Shown here one piece after another: positions 20,611 through 31,610 of a stretch of 64,000 nucleotides of DNA. Under the pieces are notes generated by a model, which saw only the letters and a program-made list of their open reading frames with translations, made no database searches and had not been told where the DNA came from. The stretch is taken from NCBI RefSeq assembly GCF_007678255.1, contig NZ_VEED01000009.1, positions 1 to 64,000 of the forward strand, given 5' to 3'. The DNA comes from Bacillus sp. X1(2014). GTDB taxonomy: Bacteria > Bacillota > Bacilli > Bacillales_B > DSM-18226. Each line of letters starts with the position of its first letter. Within the stretch, counting starts at the first letter, position 1. The translations under genes were made by a program, and so were the position numbers.

Positions 20611-22023
20611 ATGGATAAAGACATAATGAAAGATTTCATAGGCAAAGTAATTAAGATTGATAGAGGAGGACCAGAATCTAAAATTGGCATGTTAATGGAT
20701 GCGGGCGACGATCATATCGCCATTCTCACGGAAGATGATGGAATTGTTTACTACAATACGAATCATATTAAAAGTTTTACAGATAACATAAAAGAGAATA
20801 TGCAATTAGACATTGACGTACCTGAAAATTTTACATTTATAAAAGGTGCTAATTTCCAAGAACTGCTTGGCTCAATGAAATACAAATGGATTAAAATTAA
20901 CCGTGGCGGACCTGATGCCATTGAGGGCGTACTCACAATGGCAGATAATGATTCTATTTTTTTAATCAATGGTCAGGAAATCGTTCACCTTTCCATGTTT
21001 CACATTAAAAGTATTAGTTATGGTTTAAAAATTGAAAAGGCCAATGAAGAAAATTCAGATTACCAACATTCAGAACAAAAAGACGAAAAATCAAATAATA
21101 ACAGTCAAACTAATAAAAATAGCAGTAAGAATAGCAGTAAGAGCAGCAGTAAGAGCAGCAGTAAGAGCAGCAGTAAAAGCAGCAATAAGAGTAGCAGTAA
21201 GAGCAGCAGTAAAAGCAGCAGTAAGAGTAGCAGTAAGAGTAGCAGTAAGAGTAGCAATAAGAGTAGCAGTAAGAGTAGCAATAAGAGCAGCAATAAGAGC
21301 AGCAGTAAGAGTAGCAGTAAGAGAACTTCACAACAAACAACCGAAAATGATGCTGAAATAAGTACAGCATACCCATTAACGTTAAGTGGAATTTCGCTTG
21401 GAACAGATGTTGAAAAGGATGAAATAAATTTATCAATCCCTAAATTCATAAATGAATCTTCGCAAGTAACTCCTGTTGAAGAGGATGAAATTAATCTATT
21501 AAACCTTAAATTCACAAATGAAACTTCGCAAGTAACTCCTGTTGAAGAGGATGAAAGTAATCCAGCAATTCTTTTATCGACAATGGAAACTTCACAAGAA
21601 CCTGCTGTTGAAGAGGATGAAATTAATCTCGAAATTTCTTTATCCGCGATCGTACCTTTCCAGGAAACTACTAGTGCAGAGGATGAAAGTGATCTCGAAA
21701 TTTCCTTATCCGCGATGGTACCTTTTCAGGAAACCACTGGTGAAGAGGATGAAAGTGATCTCGAAATTTCCTTATCCGTGATGGTACCTTTTCAGGAAAC
21801 CACTGGTGAAGAGGATGAAAGTGATCTATCAATTCCACTATCCATAATGGAAACTCCTCAAGAAACTTCAGATGAAGAGGCCAAAAGTAATCTAGGAATT
21901 CCTTTATCAACTATGGAAACTTCAGCAAAATTAGCTGATGAAGATGCTCAAAGTGATCTGGTAGAACTCTTTGCGGTAATGGAAAAGTTTATACGAAAAT
22001 ATACTAATAATAACCAAAATTAA
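20611..22023 (+). CDS. cotB: CotB-like spore coat protein with serine/lysine and acidic repeats
   Basis: A 470-residue outer-coat type protein. The N-terminal half has two copies of the CotB module (FIGKVIKIDRGGPESKIG near residue 9 and YKWIKINRGGPDAIEGVLT near 91, each followed by a HIKSI segment). B. subtilis CotB shows about three. Residues 168-240 are an (S-S-K/N)n tract like the lysine/serine repeats phosphorylated in CotB. Unusually, residues 267-460 are nine strict 22-residue acidic repeats (V-E-E-D-E-x-N/D-L...). GGGGAGA precedes the ATG, and a SigK-like promoter lies upstream. It is located in the mother cell and then the coat. Gene-name confidence rests on the N-terminal modules. 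Confidence 0.82.
   Translation: MDKDIMKDFIGKVIKIDRGGPESKIGMLMDAGDDHIAILTEDDGIVYYNTNHIKSFTDNIKENMQLDIDVPENFTFIKGANFQELLGSMKYKWIKINRGGPDAIEGVLTMADNDSIFLINGQEIVHLSMFHIKSISYGLKIEKANEENSDYQHSEQKDEKSNNNSQTNKNSSKNSSKSSSKSSSKSSSKSSNKSSSKSSSKSSSKSSSKSSSKSSNKSSSKSSNKSSNKSSSKSSSKRTSQQTTENDAEISTAYPLTLSGISLGTDVEKDEINLSIPKFINESSQVTPVEEDEINLLNLKFTNETSQVTPVEEDESNPAILLSTMETSQEPAVEEDEINLEISLSAIVPFQETTSAEDESDLEISLSAMVPFQETTGEEDESDLEISLSVMVPFQETTGEEDESDLSIPLSIMETPQETSDEEAKSNLGIPLSTMETSAKLADEDAQSDLVELFAVMEKFIRKYTNNNQN
21112..21330 (+). repeat. Trinucleotide-based AGC/AGT/AAG tandem repeat in cotB
   Basis: About 70 codons of AGC, AGT, AAG or AAT in a 9-bp pattern encode the Ser-Ser-Lys tract. All three minus-strand frames read as leucine-, tyrosine- or cysteine-rich shadows. 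The near-identical codons suggest expansion by slippage. Confidence 0.85.
21409..22002 (+). repeat. Nine 66-bp tandem repeats in cotB
   Basis: Units beginning GTTGAAGAGGATGAA or close variants start at 21409, 21475, 21541, 21607, 21673, 21739, 21805, 21871 and 21937, exactly 66 bp apart. The units centred on 21673, 21739 and 21805 are nearly identical, pointing to recent duplication. Confidence 0.85.
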
Positions 22024-24345: not shown

Positions 24346-25152
24346 TCATATATTTTCACATGCACCTAAAAGTTTCTCCGTCTGTTCCAGTACTAAGAAC
24401 AATTCCTCCCAAGAGTTTTGTGTAGTCAAGTTCTGGGAATGCGCCAAGTTGTTTCGCAAACCTTCTAATTGTTTAAAGTACGATTTCCCTTTGCTTTTTG
24501 ATTCAATTCCTAAAAGTTCCCGTAATGAACTGTCATTCAGGACAATGTCCCGTTTATCGCAAATCTGTAAACAATCACATAATTGAATGGCTTCATTCCG
24601 TGACTTTCTAAGAGAAAATAACTCCTCAGCAATTTGAATTCGATGGCGATTTAAATGTTTTTTCCAGGTATCCTCAGGAAAAAAATTATTAATAATCCGA
24701 TAAAGATGCATCTCTAACAAAGAAATCAACCCAAATAATAACATTCTAATCGGAGGTTTCTGGAGATCCGCCAGCGTTACCACTTTTGTAACACTATTCC
24801 CTTCCAATATAAATATTCTATCTTTCTCTTTTAAGAAAAATAACGTATCGATCAGTGGTGTTGATTCCGAGACAAGTTCCGTCGGACTAAAACTTCGATA
24901 ATACTCCTGACAGATTCCTTCCTTTAATTCATTTCTTATAACATACCCGATAACCACTCCATGATCTTCTACACCCATAACATCATAGTCTTTAGTATCC
25001 ATCAGGTTTTTAATATGTAAAGCATCATCAGTTAGATGACACGTATCCATTGTTTCAGAAATACTGTTCACCGTAATGTTTTGCTCGTACAAAGACCGAA
25101 GATTTTTATAGGAACTTACTTTATCACTGTGTTTTTTTGAAAGTAATGTCAA
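24346..25152 (-). CDS. CBS-domain-like protein downstream of the put regulator
   Basis: A 268-residue soluble protein. The N-terminal part (about 25-125) looks like a CBS pair (VNSISETMDTCHLTDDALHIKNLMDTKDYDVMGVEDHGVVIGYV and a second half ending FILEGNSVTKVVTLADLQ). The C-terminal half is a helical domain of unknown type with many charged residues. It follows the regulator gene on the same strand, with a terminator between. A role in sensing nucleotides within the proline locus is conceivable but unproven. The start is TTG with GGGAGGAG six bases upstream. Confidence 0.65.
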   Translation of the reverse strand: MTLLSKKHSDKVSSYKNLRSLYEQNITVNSISETMDTCHLTDDALHIKNLMDTKDYDVMGVEDHGVVIGYVIRNELKEGICQEYYRSFSPTELVSESTPLIDTLFFLKEKDRIFILEGNSVTKVVTLADLQKPPIRMLLFGLISLLEMHLYRIINNFFPEDTWKKHLNRHRIQIAEELFSLRKSRNEAIQLCDCLQICDKRDIVLNDSSLRELLGIESKSKGKSYFKQLEGLRNNLAHSQNLTTQNSWEELFLVLEQTEKLLGACENI

Positions 25153-25237: not shown

Positions 25238-26932
25238 TTAATTTAACCCAAATTCCTTTATTTTGTTATACAATGTCCCTCTTGAAATCCCTAACAGATT
25301 AGCCGCTGCACTTTTATTTCCATATGTTTTTCTTAATGCTTCCTCAATCTCTATGACTTCAGGATTGATTACTACCTCTTCCTGTGGAACGAATTCTCCT
25401 TTTTGACTGGTAGATAGTTTCGCCAGCACATTACTCTTCATATTTTCTGGTAAATGTTCATCAGTAATGACTGATTGGTCTGTAAGGAGAACCAACCGCT
25501 CGATTGTGTTCCTTAGCTCGCGGATGTTTCCTGGCCAGTCGTAGTTCACCAACTGGTCCATAGTCTGAGAAGAAATCTCTGGTACGGGCTTTTTATATTT
25601 AGAACTGAATTCTTGAATAAATTTCTTTGCATTTGCTATGATATCCTCTTTTCTGCTTCTTAATGGCGGGATATCGATGGTAATGACAGATAAATGAAAA
25701 TAAAGCTGCTCGCTAAAATTTCCTTGTTTCACGAGAATTTCAATCGATTCTGAGGTGGAAGTAATAATTCGTGTTGGTGAGGTGATTTTCTCTACCCCGC
25801 CCACCCGGTAAAAACTATGATCGACCATATAATTTAATAGTTTCCCTTGAACTGGAAGCGGCATCTTATCAATATCTTCTATGAATAACGTACCGCCTAT
25901 AGCTTGCTCAATCCGGCCGACTTGTAAAGTTTGCTGTTCCTCGGTAAAGGTTTCCCTATGAAAACCGAAAAGTTCCATTTCCAACAAGGCAGGAGGGATG
26001 ACCGAACAGTTAAGGGTGATAAACGGACCTTCGGCTTTCGTGCCTCCATAATGAATCGCTTGTGCCAGCATTTCCTTTCCAGCCCCAGGTTCCCCTGTTA
26101 AATGGATCGGGATATCAGCATGAGCAACCTTTTGCGCAATCTTCAAGGATTCCTGAAATTTAGAATTCCTGCTTAACATAGTTGAAAAGGGATTGGACTT
26201 TTGAACAAGTAAGGAAGAGTTTGAATCCAATTCTTCGTTAAGCCGGATAATATTCGTGATATTTTGTTCAGTCGCTACTCCGCCAATGATTTTATTTTCG
26301 ATCATTATTGGTGAAGCATTGATGAGAACGTGTGTATCCCGATCAGGTCGATGATATTGCCCTCTAACTGGTCGTCCTTCATTTAAAATACGGTGGAGGA
26401 TAATCGATTCATCACGAAAGTGTTCCCCTATTTTTTTTCCGAGGATGTACTCTTTTTTAATCTTATAGGTTTCTTGTGCCGTTGTATTCCAATAGACGAC
26501 ATGTCCTGCTTGGTCAACCGCTGTAACCGATTCATTAATCGTCTCTGCTAAGGTCTGAAAATAAGCAGAAATTTGGCGATTTTCTTCTTCTAGCATTTCC
26601 ATCCGTTTTTCAACTGGAAGAACACCAATAATTTCCTTTTCGTTTTGAACAAGAACCGGTCTGCGCCAATCAACATCAGGATTGACTAGATTGACATCAG
26701 AAATCACGGTTGATTTCAGCCAATGGAGCTGTTCGAGCCACTCAATAATGGGGATGGAGTCGTCGCCTAAGGCCATCAGGCTGTTTTCATAATTCGAAAT
26801 AATAAAGTATGTTCCACCTGATACAATAACAAAATTGTACTCGTTCAGTTTCTTTTTTATTTCTAGTAATGGTATATGTTGATTTACAATTGTAAAGGAG
26901 TCATCCAGTATCAATTGAACACTTTTGAACAT
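25238..26932 (-). CDS. Enhancer-binding-protein-type regulator with degenerate AAA+ motifs
   Basis: A 564-residue regulator next to the proline genes: a CBS-like N-terminus (about 1-110), a PAS domain (about 122-225), a sigma-54-interaction AAA+ domain (about 250-480) and a Fis-type HTH (about 528-564, AAANLLGISRGTLYNKIKEFG). Walker A is present (GEPGAGKE, 280-287). The sigma-54-contacting GAFTGA loop reads ETFTEE (about 327-332). Walker B is IED in place of LDE (351-353), and the arginine-finger segment usually FREDLYYRL reads FSEQLYFHL (406-414). This protein therefore probably does not activate sigma-54. It may act as a DNA-binding sensor at a SigA promoter, like TyrR. It likely controls put. 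Confidence 0.85.
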   Translation of the reverse strand: MFKSVQLILDDSFTIVNQHIPLLEIKKKLNEYNFVIVSGGTYFIISNYENSLMALGDDSIPIIEWLEQLHWLKSTVISDVNLVNPDVDWRRPVLVQNEKEIIGVLPVEKRMEMLEEENRQISAYFQTLAETINESVTAVDQAGHVVYWNTTAQETYKIKKEYILGKKIGEHFRDESIILHRILNEGRPVRGQYHRPDRDTHVLINASPIMIENKIIGGVATEQNITNIIRLNEELDSNSSLLVQKSNPFSTMLSRNSKFQESLKIAQKVAHADIPIHLTGEPGAGKEMLAQAIHYGGTKAEGPFITLNCSVIPPALLEMELFGFHRETFTEEQQTLQVGRIEQAIGGTLFIEDIDKMPLPVQGKLLNYMVDHSFYRVGGVEKITSPTRIITSTSESIEILVKQGNFSEQLYFHLSVITIDIPPLRSRKEDIIANAKKFIQEFSSKYKKPVPEISSQTMDQLVNYDWPGNIRELRNTIERLVLLTDQSVITDEHLPENMKSNVLAKLSTSQKGEFVPQEEVVINPEVIEIEEALRKTYGNKSAAANLLGISRGTLYNKIKEFGLN

Positions 26933-27040: not shown

Positions 27041-27086
27041 TAAAAAAAGCTGATCCCGTAGTTCATTCGGGTTTTCAGCTTTTTCA
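27041..27086 (-). terminator. Terminator of the put operon
   Basis: On the minus strand AAAAAGCTGA...CCCG...CGGG...TCAGCTTTTTTT, between putP and the regulator gene. The regulator is therefore a separate transcription unit. Confidence 0.85.
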
Positions 27087-27121: not shown

Positions 27122-28585
27122 TTATGCCGAGTGTTTATATTGGTCAAATTCTCTTTGTAATTGCTCACTCGGTTCCGGAGTCATCAAGCTGACAATCCAG
27201 ATGGCAGCCAAGCCTACAATGAATCCTGGGATGATTTCGTATAAACTATTTTTTAAGACTGGGATACTTGCCCAAATGATAACCGTTACGGCACCGCCAA
27301 TCATTCCGGCAAGTGCACCCCATCTGTTCATCCGTTTCCAGTAAAGACTCATAAGAATGACAGGCCCAAACGATGCTCCAAAGCCAGCCCAAGCGTATCC
27401 AACCAGCGATAAAATGGTTCCATTTTTATCAAAAGCAATGACAACAGCAATGATTGAAACAACTAGCACCGAAAGTCTGCTAATAAACATGAGTTCTTTA
27501 TCTGTAGCTGAACGGCGGAAGAACGTCTTATAGACATCTTCAGTAAGAGAGCTTGCGGTTACAAGAAGTTGGGAAGAAATCGTGCTCATGACGGCTGCTA
27601 ATAATGCGGCCAGTAAAAATCCAGTAATCAATGGATGAAATAATATTCTACTTAATTCAATAAAGACGGTTTCAGGATCTGCTAGTGTGAGTCCTTGTTT
27701 AGAATAAAAGGCCAAACCGATGAAACCAGTAAACATCGCACCACATACAGAAAAAATCATCCAGCCCATACCAATCTGTCTAGCTTTTTTAATTTCTTTC
27801 ACGGACGAAATCGCCATAAAGCGGACAATAATATGCGGCTGGCCAAAGTAACCCAACCCCCACGCCATCAAGGAAACAATGCCTAACACGGTAGTCCCTT
27901 TAAAAATATCGAATAACTTCGGATCGATTGCCTTTATTTCCTGAAATGCGGGACCAATTCCGCCTACTTCCATGATGGTCACAACTGGTACTAAAATAAG
28001 AGCGGTTACCATAATTAAACCTTGTACAAAATCGGTCCAGCTTACCGCCAAAAACCCGCCAAATAACGTATAAGCAATTACGACAGCAGCGATAATCCAA
28101 AGTCCTGCCTGGTAATGCAGATTAAAGGTTGATTCAAACAGAACCCCGCCTGAAACCATGCCCGATGATACATAAAAAGTAAAAAAGACAATAATGATGA
28201 GTCCAGAGGTCAAACGCAGCATATTCGAACCATCAGCAAAACGATTCTCCAGGAACGCAGGAATGGTCATCGAATTGTTGGCGTTCTCTGTATAAGTTCT
28301 TAAACTTGGTGCTACATAAAGCCAGTTGATATAGGCTCCAATAGTTAAACCGATGGCAATCCATGAGGCACTCAAGCCTTGAGAAAACATCGCCCCAGGG
28401 AGACCCATAAGCAGCCAGCCGCTCATATCAGATGCCCCTGCACTTAGTGCAGTAACAGCAGGCCCCAGCCCTCTTCCGCCTAACATATAATCTTCTAGAT
28501 TAGACGTACGCTTGTACGCAAAATAACCAATAATCAGCATACCTACCATATAAATACCGATAGAAATAAGAATCTGTATATTCAA
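27122..28585 (-). CDS. putP: Sodium/proline symporter
   Basis: A 487-residue solute:sodium symporter (SSS family, 13 helices) that imports proline with Na+. The N-terminus (GYFAYKRTSNLEDYMLGGRGLGPAVTALSAGASDMSGWLLMGLPGA) is the PutP signature, and the length fits. It is the last gene of the put cluster, 127 bp after putC. That gap holds a GC-rich hairpin and an imperfect cre-like sequence, so it may be separately tuned. Confidence 0.93.
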   Translation of the reverse strand: MNIQILISIGIYMVGMLIIGYFAYKRTSNLEDYMLGGRGLGPAVTALSAGASDMSGWLLMGLPGAMFSQGLSASWIAIGLTIGAYINWLYVAPSLRTYTENANNSMTIPAFLENRFADGSNMLRLTSGLIIIVFFTFYVSSGMVSGGVLFESTFNLHYQAGLWIIAAVVIAYTLFGGFLAVSWTDFVQGLIMVTALILVPVVTIMEVGGIGPAFQEIKAIDPKLFDIFKGTTVLGIVSLMAWGLGYFGQPHIIVRFMAISSVKEIKKARQIGMGWMIFSVCGAMFTGFIGLAFYSKQGLTLADPETVFIELSRILFHPLITGFLLAALLAAVMSTISSQLLVTASSLTEDVYKTFFRRSATDKELMFISRLSVLVVSIIAVVIAFDKNGTILSLVGYAWAGFGASFGPVILMSLYWKRMNRWGALAGMIGGAVTVIIWASIPVLKNSLYEIIPGFIVGLAAIWIVSLMTPEPSEQLQREFDQYKHSA

Positions 28586-28712: not shown

Positions 28713-30281
28713 TTAAAGTTTTCTAGATTTCAGTTTAGCTTGAGTAAACAACAGCAAGTAATCGTATCCGCCAGCTTTTGAATCCGTGCCTGACATGTTG
28801 AATCCGCCAAATGGATGAGCACCCACTAATGCACCTGTACACTTTTTATTAATATAAAGATTCCCGCAATGCATGTTATCTAGGGCATACTGAATTCGTT
28901 CCTCATTCTGGGAATGATAAGCCCCTGTTAATCCATAATCGGTATCATTGTAGATTTCAATCGCTTCCTGCCAGTCAGCTGCTTTCGCAAGGGCAAGGAC
29001 AGGGCCAAAGATTTCCTCTTGCATGATCCGGGCTTTTGGTTGAACATCTGCAAATACAGTTGGTTCGATGTAGAACCCGTTCCCCTCTGCTCTAGAGCCG
29101 CCTGTAAGCAATCTGCCTTCTGTTTTACCTATTTCGATATAGCCCATGATTTTATCCATTGATTTTTGGTCGATCACTGGTCCCACCGCATAGTTCTCTT
29201 CTGGAAGACCAACTGTAAGATTTTTCGTTAATTCGGTTACTTTCTCAACGACTTCATCATATACCGATTCCACAATAATTGCTCGAGAGCCCGCGGAACA
29301 TTTTTGTCCTTGGAAGCCAAATGCGGAAGCGACAATCGCCGCTGCTGCTGCATCTAAGTCGGCTGTTTCATCAACAACAACTCCGTCTTTACCGCCCATC
29401 TCAGCAATGACACGCTTTAACCACAATTGACCTGGATGTACCTTTGAAGCTCTTTCATAAATACGGCAGCCTACTGCACGAGAGCCTGTAAAAGAGATAA
29501 ACCGAGTGCTTGGATGTTCAACCAAATACTCACCTACATCAATTCCATCGCCTGGTAAATAGTTGAGGACGCCTGAAGGAAGACCCACCTCTTCCATTAA
29601 TTCCACAAATTTGGCAGCAATCACTGGAGTAGCATCTGCTGGTTTCAAAATCACCGTATTACCTGAGACAATCGCTGCGACAGTGGTTCCCGCCATAATC
29701 GCCAATGGGAAGTTAAACGGAGAAATAATTATCCCTACACCAAGAGGAATATACGAAATTTGATTATCTTCTCCTTCAATGTTAACAAGTGGCTGATGAT
29801 TACTTGTCTCGCTTAGGCGAATCATTTCTCTCGCATAGAATTCTAGAAAATCGATGGCTTCTGCTGTATCAGCATCTGCTTCAGCCCAGTTTTTCCCAGA
29901 TTCATAGACAAGGTACGAAGAAAATTCATGCTTGCGCTGTCTCATTAAATTTGCTGCTTTGAATAGATATTCCGCACGCTCAGCTGGAGCAACCTTTTTC
30001 CAAGTTTCAAAGGTTTTTAACGCTTCTTGCATTGCATTTTCAGCTAATTCTTTATTGCCTTTGCTAACGGATCCGATGACTTCATCCACATTTCCCGGAT
30101 TAATAGAAATCGTTTGTTCCTCAGTAAATAGCTTTTCATTGCCAATTACTAGCGGGTACTTCCTGCCTAACTCCGTTTTCACTTTTGCAAGCGCTGCAAC
30201 CATCAATTTCTTATTTTCTTCCAGAGTAAAATTGGTAAAAGGCTCATTTTTAAATGGTGCATGTTGTGTTACGGTTGTCAT
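28713..30281 (-). CDS. putC: 1-pyrroline-5-carboxylate dehydrogenase
   Basis: A 522-residue aldehyde dehydrogenase that oxidises glutamate semialdehyde/P5C to glutamate with NAD+, the second step of proline breakdown. The fold signatures are complete: [27 protein letters not shown], the catalytic Glu in [12 protein letters not shown], and the nucleophile Cys in [12 protein letters not shown]. It follows putB by 30 bp. Its close relative RocA serves arginine breakdown; its location between putB and putP favours the Put role. Confidence 0.93.
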
Positions 30282-30311: not shown

Positions 30312-31226
30312 TTATTTTAATAGATTTTTTAGTACAAACCATACATTGGCAGGTCTTTCTGCCAACCGTCTCATAAAATAACCAAACCAGTCTACCCCGT
30401 AAGGCACATAAACTCGGACTCTGAACCCTTCTTTTACAAGTCTAGCTTGAATATCCTCACAAATTCCATATAGCATTTGGAACTCAAATTGGTCTTTAGC
30501 TATTTGGTATTCATTTACCAATGTTTTTGTATATTCAATCATCGCTGCATCATGGGTTGCTACCGCTGTATAGTTCCCATTTAATAGATGTTGCTTAATA
30601 ATCTTTTTGAAATTCTCATCGACATCTTTTTTCTCCGGAAAAGCAACTGTTGGAGACTCTTTATATGCCCCTTTTACGAGACGCAGGTTTGCGTTCAGAT
30701 GATTTAAGTCTGCAATATCCTGTTCTGTTCTGAATAGATAGGCCTGAATAACAAGTCCGACATTGTCATATTCCTTCCGAAGCTCTTTATAAATATCCAA
30801 TGATATTTGACAGTGATCATAATCTTCCATATCGATTCTGACAAAATTTTGATGGAGTTGAGCTCGGTTAAGAATTTTACGCATATTCTTCATACATAAC
30901 TCTTTGCTAATATCAAGGCCAAGCGATGTCATTTTAAGAGAAAGATTGGACTTGACCCCTGCTTCGGCAATCGCATCGAGAGTTTGAATGCACATGGCAG
31001 TGGATTCCTGCGCCTCTTCTTCTGTGTAAACAAATTCCCCAAGGTGATCTAAAGTGACCATTTTCCCATCACCGTTCAACTTTTTCACGGAATCAATCGC
31101 TGTTTGGATCGTTTCCCCCGCCACAAATCGCCCGGCACCAAATCTCAAACCGTATTTTTTTGCTAGTTTGTTAGCTGAGGTATTCTTCCCAAGTGATTGA
31201 AACATATTTCTCATTAATAATTCCAT
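30312..31226 (-). CDS. putB: Proline dehydrogenase
   Basis: A 304-residue FAD-linked monofunctional proline dehydrogenase with a TIM-barrel fold, oxidising proline to P5C at the membrane. Recognised from LDHLGEFVYTEEEA, the SLKMTSLGLDIS strand, RIDMEDYDHCQISLDIY, LRLVKGAYKESPTVAFP, ATHDAAMIEY and the C-terminal RVYVPYGVDWFGYFMRRLAERPANV. AAGGAGG precedes the ATG. It is the first gene of the putB-putC-putP unit, transcribed from a SigA-like promoter with a palindrome upstream. Confidence 0.94.
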   Translation of the reverse strand: MELLMRNMFQSLGKNTSANKLAKKYGLRFGAGRFVAGETIQTAIDSVKKLNGDGKMVTLDHLGEFVYTEEEAQESTAMCIQTLDAIAEAGVKSNLSLKMTSLGLDISKELCMKNMRKILNRAQLHQNFVRIDMEDYDHCQISLDIYKELRKEYDNVGLVIQAYLFRTEQDIADLNHLNANLRLVKGAYKESPTVAFPEKKDVDENFKKIIKQHLLNGNYTAVATHDAAMIEYTKTLVNEYQIAKDQFEFQMLYGICEDIQARLVKEGFRVRVYVPYGVDWFGYFMRRLAERPANVWFVLKNLLK

Positions 31227-31296
31227 ACTTCAAACCTCCTTAATTGAATGAACAGTTTTGTTTATTATGTAATTCCCTGATCCAATCTTATAACAC

Positions 31297-31325
31297 ATTA
31301 TACATAAGTGTCCATATATTTTTAA
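31297..31325 (-). promoter_or_regulatory. SigA-like promoter of the put operon
   Basis: On the minus strand TTAAAA, 17 bp, TATAAT. The -10 is perfect and the -35 poor, typical of an activator-dependent promoter. No -24/-12 element was found in the 380-bp gap. Confidence 0.55.
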
Positions 31326-31367
31326 AATTTAAACATATTTGTTAACTTGTTAACCTAATTATACTTT

Positions 31368-31389
31368 TTGTTCAATCACTATTGAACAA
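31368..31389. promoter_or_regulatory. Perfect 9-bp palindrome upstream of the put promoter
   Basis: TTGTTCAAT, CACT, ATTGAACAA, centred about 55 bp upstream of the -35 element. A second, shorter dyad-rich stretch (GTTAACTTGTTAAC near 31341) lies between. Both are candidate binding sites for the put regulator. Confidence 0.55.
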
Positions 31390-31610
31390 CCTTGTAAGGA
31401 AATCAGACATGGTTTTTTTCTGATCACTAATAGGAACAATATATAAAAAAGAATCTCTGATAAAGGGAATTTGTGTAATTACTTTAATGGTAGTTTTCTT
31501 TGAAAAATGCGCTAGGAACAAAGTCTAAAGGAAATTTGATGGATTTACTTTCCACTTGTATTTCTTAAAAATAAAAAGGAGAAGATTCTGAAAGGTTGTG
31601 TTCGGATAAG

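Follow-up and report, generated by a model that had tools for sequence, protein, structure and literature searches.

We consider it probable that, in soil bacilli, a sigma-54 activator of proline-catabolic genes has become a regulator of the SigA promoter of putBCP, where it probably serves as a repressor relieved by proline. The independence of this protein, here called REG, from sigma-54 is strongly supported, while we infer its DNA binding, its repressing action and its ligand. REG is encoded in the stretch of DNA that we analyzed (the window; 64,000 nt of Bacillus sp. X1(2014), NZ_VEED01000009.1, positions 1 to 64,000). A sequence-only reading of the window had proposed that an enhancer-binding protein (EBP) was converted here to a SigA-type regulator, a proposal that is supported by the loss of motifs throughout the clade and by eight of 32 REG genomes in which no sigma-54 was found.

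REG and the put locus

The 564-residue REG protein (25238..26932, minus strand), as delineated by its open reading frame, Pfam and NCBIfam matches and a structural model, is composed of a CBS-like domain, a PAS domain, an AAA+ domain and a Fis-type helix-turn-helix (HTH). Pfam detects the PAS, Sigma54_activat, AAA+ lid and Fis-type HTH domains, the last three of which are EBP hallmarks that REG has retained. The Pfam-assigned PAS domain (residues about 125-226; 26255..26560, minus strand) is 36-45% identical to that of the sister group described below, and the HTH (residues 527-561; 25250..25354, minus strand; also from Pfam) is nearly invariant in REG and its orthologues (the put clade) and close to the HTH of the sister group. 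The full model has a mean pLDDT of 82 and a pTM of 0.51. A CBS-PAS sensor front end had been claimed earlier; the PAS part is borne out by Pfam, whereas the CBS part stands by fold and not by Pfam, which calls no CBS domain in REG. The model of residues 1-118 (26579..26932, minus strand; pLDDT 88) resembles a CBS pair, with weak Foldseek matches, mostly to CBS-domain proteins (best E 1.3e-4; eight matches at 0.001 or better). MgtE, AMPK and GMP reductase, which hold CBS domains, are among these matches.

REG is the last gene in the order putB-putC-putP-REG, all on the minus strand: putB (proline dehydrogenase, 30312..31226; PF01619), putC (P5C dehydrogenase, 28713..30281; TIGR01237 above cut-off) and putP (sodium/proline symporter, 27122..28585; TIGR02121 above cut-off). 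An inverted repeat with A/T tracts, recognized by eye between putP and REG (27043..27085, minus strand), is a candidate terminator, and REG is therefore probably transcribed from its own promoter. Put genes accompany REG in 32 of 34 loci, the window included, and the contig ends at REG in the other two (G095 and G367); three pairs of locus numbers used below denote the same loci (L033/L109, L030/L150 and L089/L164). At L078, L079 and L090, REG adjoins a P5C dehydrogenase-proline dehydrogenase operon of another gene order, with a different layout of the dyads described below. Directly after REG in the window, and also in L001-L003, lies a gene (24346-25152) for a 268-residue protein that matches no Pfam or NCBIfam family. 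Elsewhere in the window, 20611-22023 encodes a 470-residue protein in which acidic repeats come after a long Ser-Ser-Lys repeat.

Loss of the sigma-54 motor throughout the put clade

The roles of the GAFTGA, Walker and arginine-finger motifs have been described (PMC7175178, partial text). In an alignment of REG to NtrC1, whose structure is known, Walker A is kept as GEPGAGKE (residues 280-287; 26072..26095), ETFTEE occupies the GAFTGA position of the L1 loop (residues 327-332; 25937..25954), FIED aligns with the FLDE of Walker B (LFIEDI for LFLDEI; residues 349-354; 25871..25888), and FSEQLYFHL aligns with FREDLYYRL (NFSEQLYFHL; residues 405-414; 25691..25720; all on the minus strand), the two finger arginines being replaced by S and H. 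These four assignments agree with those made from the letters of the window. In addition, the sensor-I ATN has become STS.

Alignment of orthologues, a check named beforehand, showed that the losses are conserved. None of 140 non-identical put-clade sequences has GAFTGA or a variant accepted by its pattern, none has the Walker B DE pair and none has both finger arginines: the first is never kept (one row is gapped there) and the second is kept in 16. Because all 140 share the losses, sequencing error or local decay of REG is ruled out. As judged by sequence, the parts that contact and remodel sigma-54 have been lost from the REG family. All 28 comparison EBPs (eight sisters and 20 sampled from the genomes of two relatives) have the DE pair and both arginines, with exact GAFTGA in 18 and variants of it in 10. 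The Walker A lysine is retained in 137/140 put-clade sequences, so nucleotide may still matter; it is T in P0086 and P0089 and R in P0097.

When the AAA+ columns of the put clade are ranked by variability, loop positions 1, 2 and 5 fall in the top 10% and the loop phenylalanine is near the median; WPGN, the HTH and most of Walker A hardly vary. One orthologue (L088:5659-7134) has a deletion of the L1 loop and the arginine-finger region and keeps Walker A. The protein search listed 120 of 7923 matches, 115 of which passed the length filter; among the matches listed, many database entries name put-clade proteins sigma-54 regulators, and sigma-54 regulon predictions based on these names would therefore be wrong for them.

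An intact, probable sister group at a second proline operon

The 77 put-clade rows form one branch with an SH-aLRT of 100 (quick method, midpoint root, motif columns removed). The group nearest to it consists of intact EBPs whose genes adjoin a second operon for P5C dehydrogenase and proline dehydrogenase; the branch and this group join with an SH-aLRT of 85, or 99 when one further intact EBP, L098, is included, and the intact set is, on this sequence evidence, the probable sister group. The motifs are intact at all 20 sister loci. PrdR is the top-scoring NCBIfam family for REG and for the four intact relatives scanned (L109, L089, L031 and L098), and the HTH consensus sequences of the put clade and the sister group, GISRGTLYNKIKEYGL and GISRVTLYNKMKKYGL, are alike. 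Robertmurraya korlensis (G007) carries both forms, a converted REG at put (L008) and an intact sister (L109) that sits at the second proline operon with a sigma-54 promoter. The ancestor of REG would have been a sigma-54 activator of proline-catabolic genes. REG was present in 16 of 151 genomes drawn from the family and 13 of 397 from the order; the remaining matches in these draws (six family genomes and one order genome) were sisters. Whole-gene dN/dS was 0.09-0.16 in seven REG pairs (synonymous sites were saturated in one), and REG is thus a working gene under purifying selection.

Sigma-54 and its promoters

A -24/-12 matrix was built from 12 of 16 Bacillus thuringiensis sites (PMC4428206, partial text), the four most degenerate being left out, and it scores its own 12 sites at 16.3 or more. 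No such site was found with it in 25 REG-linked put upstream regions, the window included (best score 6.6), in agreement with the earlier statement that the putB upstream region has none. The first eight sister loci tested (nine rows, two being one locus) scored 20.9-24.3, and a later set of 20, two of which repeat earlier loci, scored 16.8-25.3. According to the parts of the sources available, sigma-54 targets in Bacilli include proline dehydrogenase (PMC12316311), and a sigL mutant of B. thuringiensis grew much more slowly than the wild type when its nitrogen came from proline (doubling over 60 h, compared with 30 h; PMC4428206). These data fit the sister; neither bears on REG.

Sigma-54 itself was not found in eight of 32 REG genomes by domain searches with PF04552 (on 20) and PF04963 (on all 32 and one sister genome); the count includes G367 and leaves out the genome of the window. 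The searches agree on the same eight, and both were positive in the B. subtilis and E. coli controls. The other 24 REG genomes and all 26 sister genomes have sigma-54 (8/32 versus 0/26 absent; Fisher p = 0.006, uncorrected for kinship). Incompleteness is unlikely for G034, one of the eight, because it has a 5.23-Mb contig in a 5.2-Mb genome. The eight fall into two groups by REG similarity, and since each group also holds a sigma-54-positive genome (G108 and G104), sigma-54 has likely been lost at least twice among REG genomes. Exact GAFTGA codon strings number zero in six of the eight and one in two, as compared with one to eight in eleven of 12 sigma-54-positive genomes and zero in G104.

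In the eight genomes, put expression cannot depend on sigma-54, as none was found there. One could envision that REG still activates sigma-54 promoters by some degenerate mechanism, given that the AAA+ part of its model matches solved EBPs in structure comparison and thus keeps the overall fold, and that a weak -24/-12-like string, TTTACACGTAATTTGTT, is present at L078/L079. That string scores 6.6 and 4-5 of 100 shuffles are as good, so that a relic promoter at these loci is indistinguishable from chance; with three motor elements gone, no -24/-12 site in 25 put upstream regions and the eight genomes in contradiction, we regard degenerate activation as very improbable. The put upstream regions of the eight genomes have the same dyads as the others, and REG persists even in species where sigma-54 was not found.

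Tandem dyads at the predicted putB promoter

In the window, a TATAAT (31358..31363, minus strand) is the predicted -10 box of putB, with a start near 31350. Another TATAAT, near 31300, was rejected as a promoter because the hexamer is not conserved in relatives. A pattern search located four dyads on the minus strand: ACA-N4-TGT at about -40 (31386..31395), AACA-N4-TGTT at about +13 (31332..31343), ACA-N4-TGT at about +44 (31302..31311) and AACA-N4-TGTT at about +94 (31251..31262). Two or more ACA-N4-TGT dyads lie upstream of put in all 32 genomes, including that of the window, mostly with a pair spacing of 28-32 bp (39 in L051/L052). The 25 REG upstream regions hold 68 dyads, as compared with a mean of 2.6 and a maximum of 7 over 100 shuffles, and the 91 dyads of the 32 distinct genomes have a consensus of about TTRAACAAWWTTGTTYAA.

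One alternative is that the dyads belong to another regulator and that REG is a neighbor that does not act on them. Binding of the dyads by REG is an assignment of ours, and the upstream region of REG itself has a dyad in only one of 30 loci. Against this, the dyads are nearly absent from putB genes that lack REG (three in 26 upstream regions, and none in four more of another gene order), although this control is imperfect because those genes are relatives (53-68% identical, and for the most part lacking a putC in the 1.5-kb flanks) and not the same operon. Moreover, dyads of the same core occur at the sigma-54 promoters of the sister: 18 of 20 loci have at least one in the 250 bp upstream of the site, mostly 55-122 bp from it (none in L155 and L169), and 11 of the 20 have two that are spaced by 30 bp. 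The low dN/dS and the near-invariant HTH of REG also speak against a bystander, and we find this alternative improbable. A strict genome-wide operator scan of 19 genomes gave 0-6 sites in each, as compared with 0-7 for a reversed control, and thus says little about a wider regulon; the put site was among the matches in 13 of the 19. In L145 and L146, GAAAGCGTTTACA overlaps the third dyad upstream of putB; it resembles a CcpA cre site.

The position of the dyads relative to the promoter bears on the action of REG. In 22 of 25 upstream regions, a dyad center follows a TATA(A/T)T at a distance of 20-24 bp (random placement gave 1.9 on average and at most 8 over 2000 trials), as it does in 29 of 33 of an enlarged set, that is, in 28 of 32 distinct genomes, L071 and L084 being one genome; this count includes the genome of the window and leaves out L006 and G367, in which the putB upstream region is off the contig. 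The four genomes without the spacing are L078, L079, L090 and L144, and at L145 additional TATA(A/T)T boxes lie downstream of the dyads. Relative to the predicted start, the spacing places dyads near +13 and +44, with one at -40 in some. In L040-L052, which hold all eight genomes without sigma-54, the first dyad comes 20-24 bp after a TATAAT, and the dyads therefore fall downstream of it. In L046-L050 (five genomes, four without sigma-54), the two dyads are so close to the start codon (24-54 bp before it) that no promoter would fit after the second one, and with the dyads over the start, occupancy should block transcription. Operator geometry thus favors repression, which the sequence-only reading did not propose.

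Alternatively, REG might be a sigma-54-independent activator, or a dual regulator, of the SigA promoter that contacts RNA polymerase from a dyad at -40 or -57, a mode of action reported for VpsR and Rhodobacter NtrC. In Neobacillus/Mesobacillus and Priestia-like loci (L082, L084, L147-L149), a dyad is at about -40, a class II activator position that counts against repression. A second candidate promoter in the subclade of the window (the Neobacillus group), T(A/G)GACA-N16/17-TATAA, would put dyad 2 near -57. The -35 boxes of the predicted put promoters are weak, a possible sign that they need an activator, and in B. subtilis the put operon is activated by its regulator PutR/PrcR (PMC13198045, partial text). 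The dyads of L040-L052 lie downstream of TATAAT, all eight genomes without sigma-54 included, and this argues against activation, which we hold to be possible but rather unlikely. Its odds overlap those of the favored reading, since dual action counts under both.

A model for REG at put

The reading that we favor, repression of a SigA-type promoter, can be put as follows. REG would bind the tandem ACA-N4-TGT operators that cover the transcription start and, when proline is low, would block RNA polymerase at the put promoter. Proline or P5C might be sensed by the PAS/CBS front end, releasing REG from the DNA. The AAA+ domain may serve in assembly and possibly nucleotide binding and would no longer be an ATP-driven motor. 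As to how this arose, we see about an even chance that the enhancer dyads and their spacing of ~30 bp were kept while the -24/-12 element was replaced, so that the dyads came to lie over the new start and the AAA+ ring outlived sigma-54 as a non-hydrolysing assembly module. If true, the model would explain the control of proline genes in species that lack sigma-54. REG also offers a case in Bacillota in which the states on either side of a loss of sigma-54 control can be compared: the sister, intact and with its sigma-54 promoter, and the converted clade, with its operators, both occurring in the genome of G007. In a literature search covering titles and the beginnings of abstracts of open-licence papers, we recognized no published description of REG.

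Comparison with known systems

In B. subtilis, the gene for PutR/PrcR follows putB-putC-putP, and its product regulates the operon in response to proline (PMC13198045, partial text). REG fills the slot of this unrelated PucR-type protein, but the domains differ, Pfam reporting none of the PucR type in REG. PrdR of Clostridia and the intact Bacillales sisters share with REG the PAS-AAA+-Fis architecture and a proline-metabolism locus. For PrdR, a role as sigma-54 activator and a predicted sigma-54 promoter have been described (PMC6615313, partial text), and the sisters have -24/-12 promoters, whereas REG has neither the motif nor the promoter; its score against the PrdR family NF041552 is 416.7, under the curated cut-off of 795.

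TyrR of Gammaproteobacteria represses amino-acid genes. Like REG, it is an EBP homologue without a functional GAFTGA; unlike TyrR, REG also lacks the Walker B pair and the arginine fingers. The analogy to TyrR drawn in the earlier reading holds for the likely mode of action and fails for the family: REG scores 217.6 bits against NF008085, under the curated cut-off of 576, and its nearest intact kin are PrdR-like proline-locus activators. TyrR is reported to be sigma-70 dependent, its GAFTGA not being functional (PMC3162934, partial text), and by analogy REG may work in the same manner, as a regulator of a SigA promoter. Other EBPs that have no GAFTGA and are reported to act at sigma-70 promoters are known in Proteobacteria, namely Caulobacter and Rhodobacter NtrC, VpsR, HupR and DhaR (PMC10274813 and PMC3162934, partial texts), which resemble REG in lacking GAFTGA but belong to other lineages, and YplP of B. 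subtilis is listed as lacking GAFTGA in the latter source. REG is a further GAFTGA-less lineage, in Bacillota, and one that has in addition lost Walker B and the arginine fingers.
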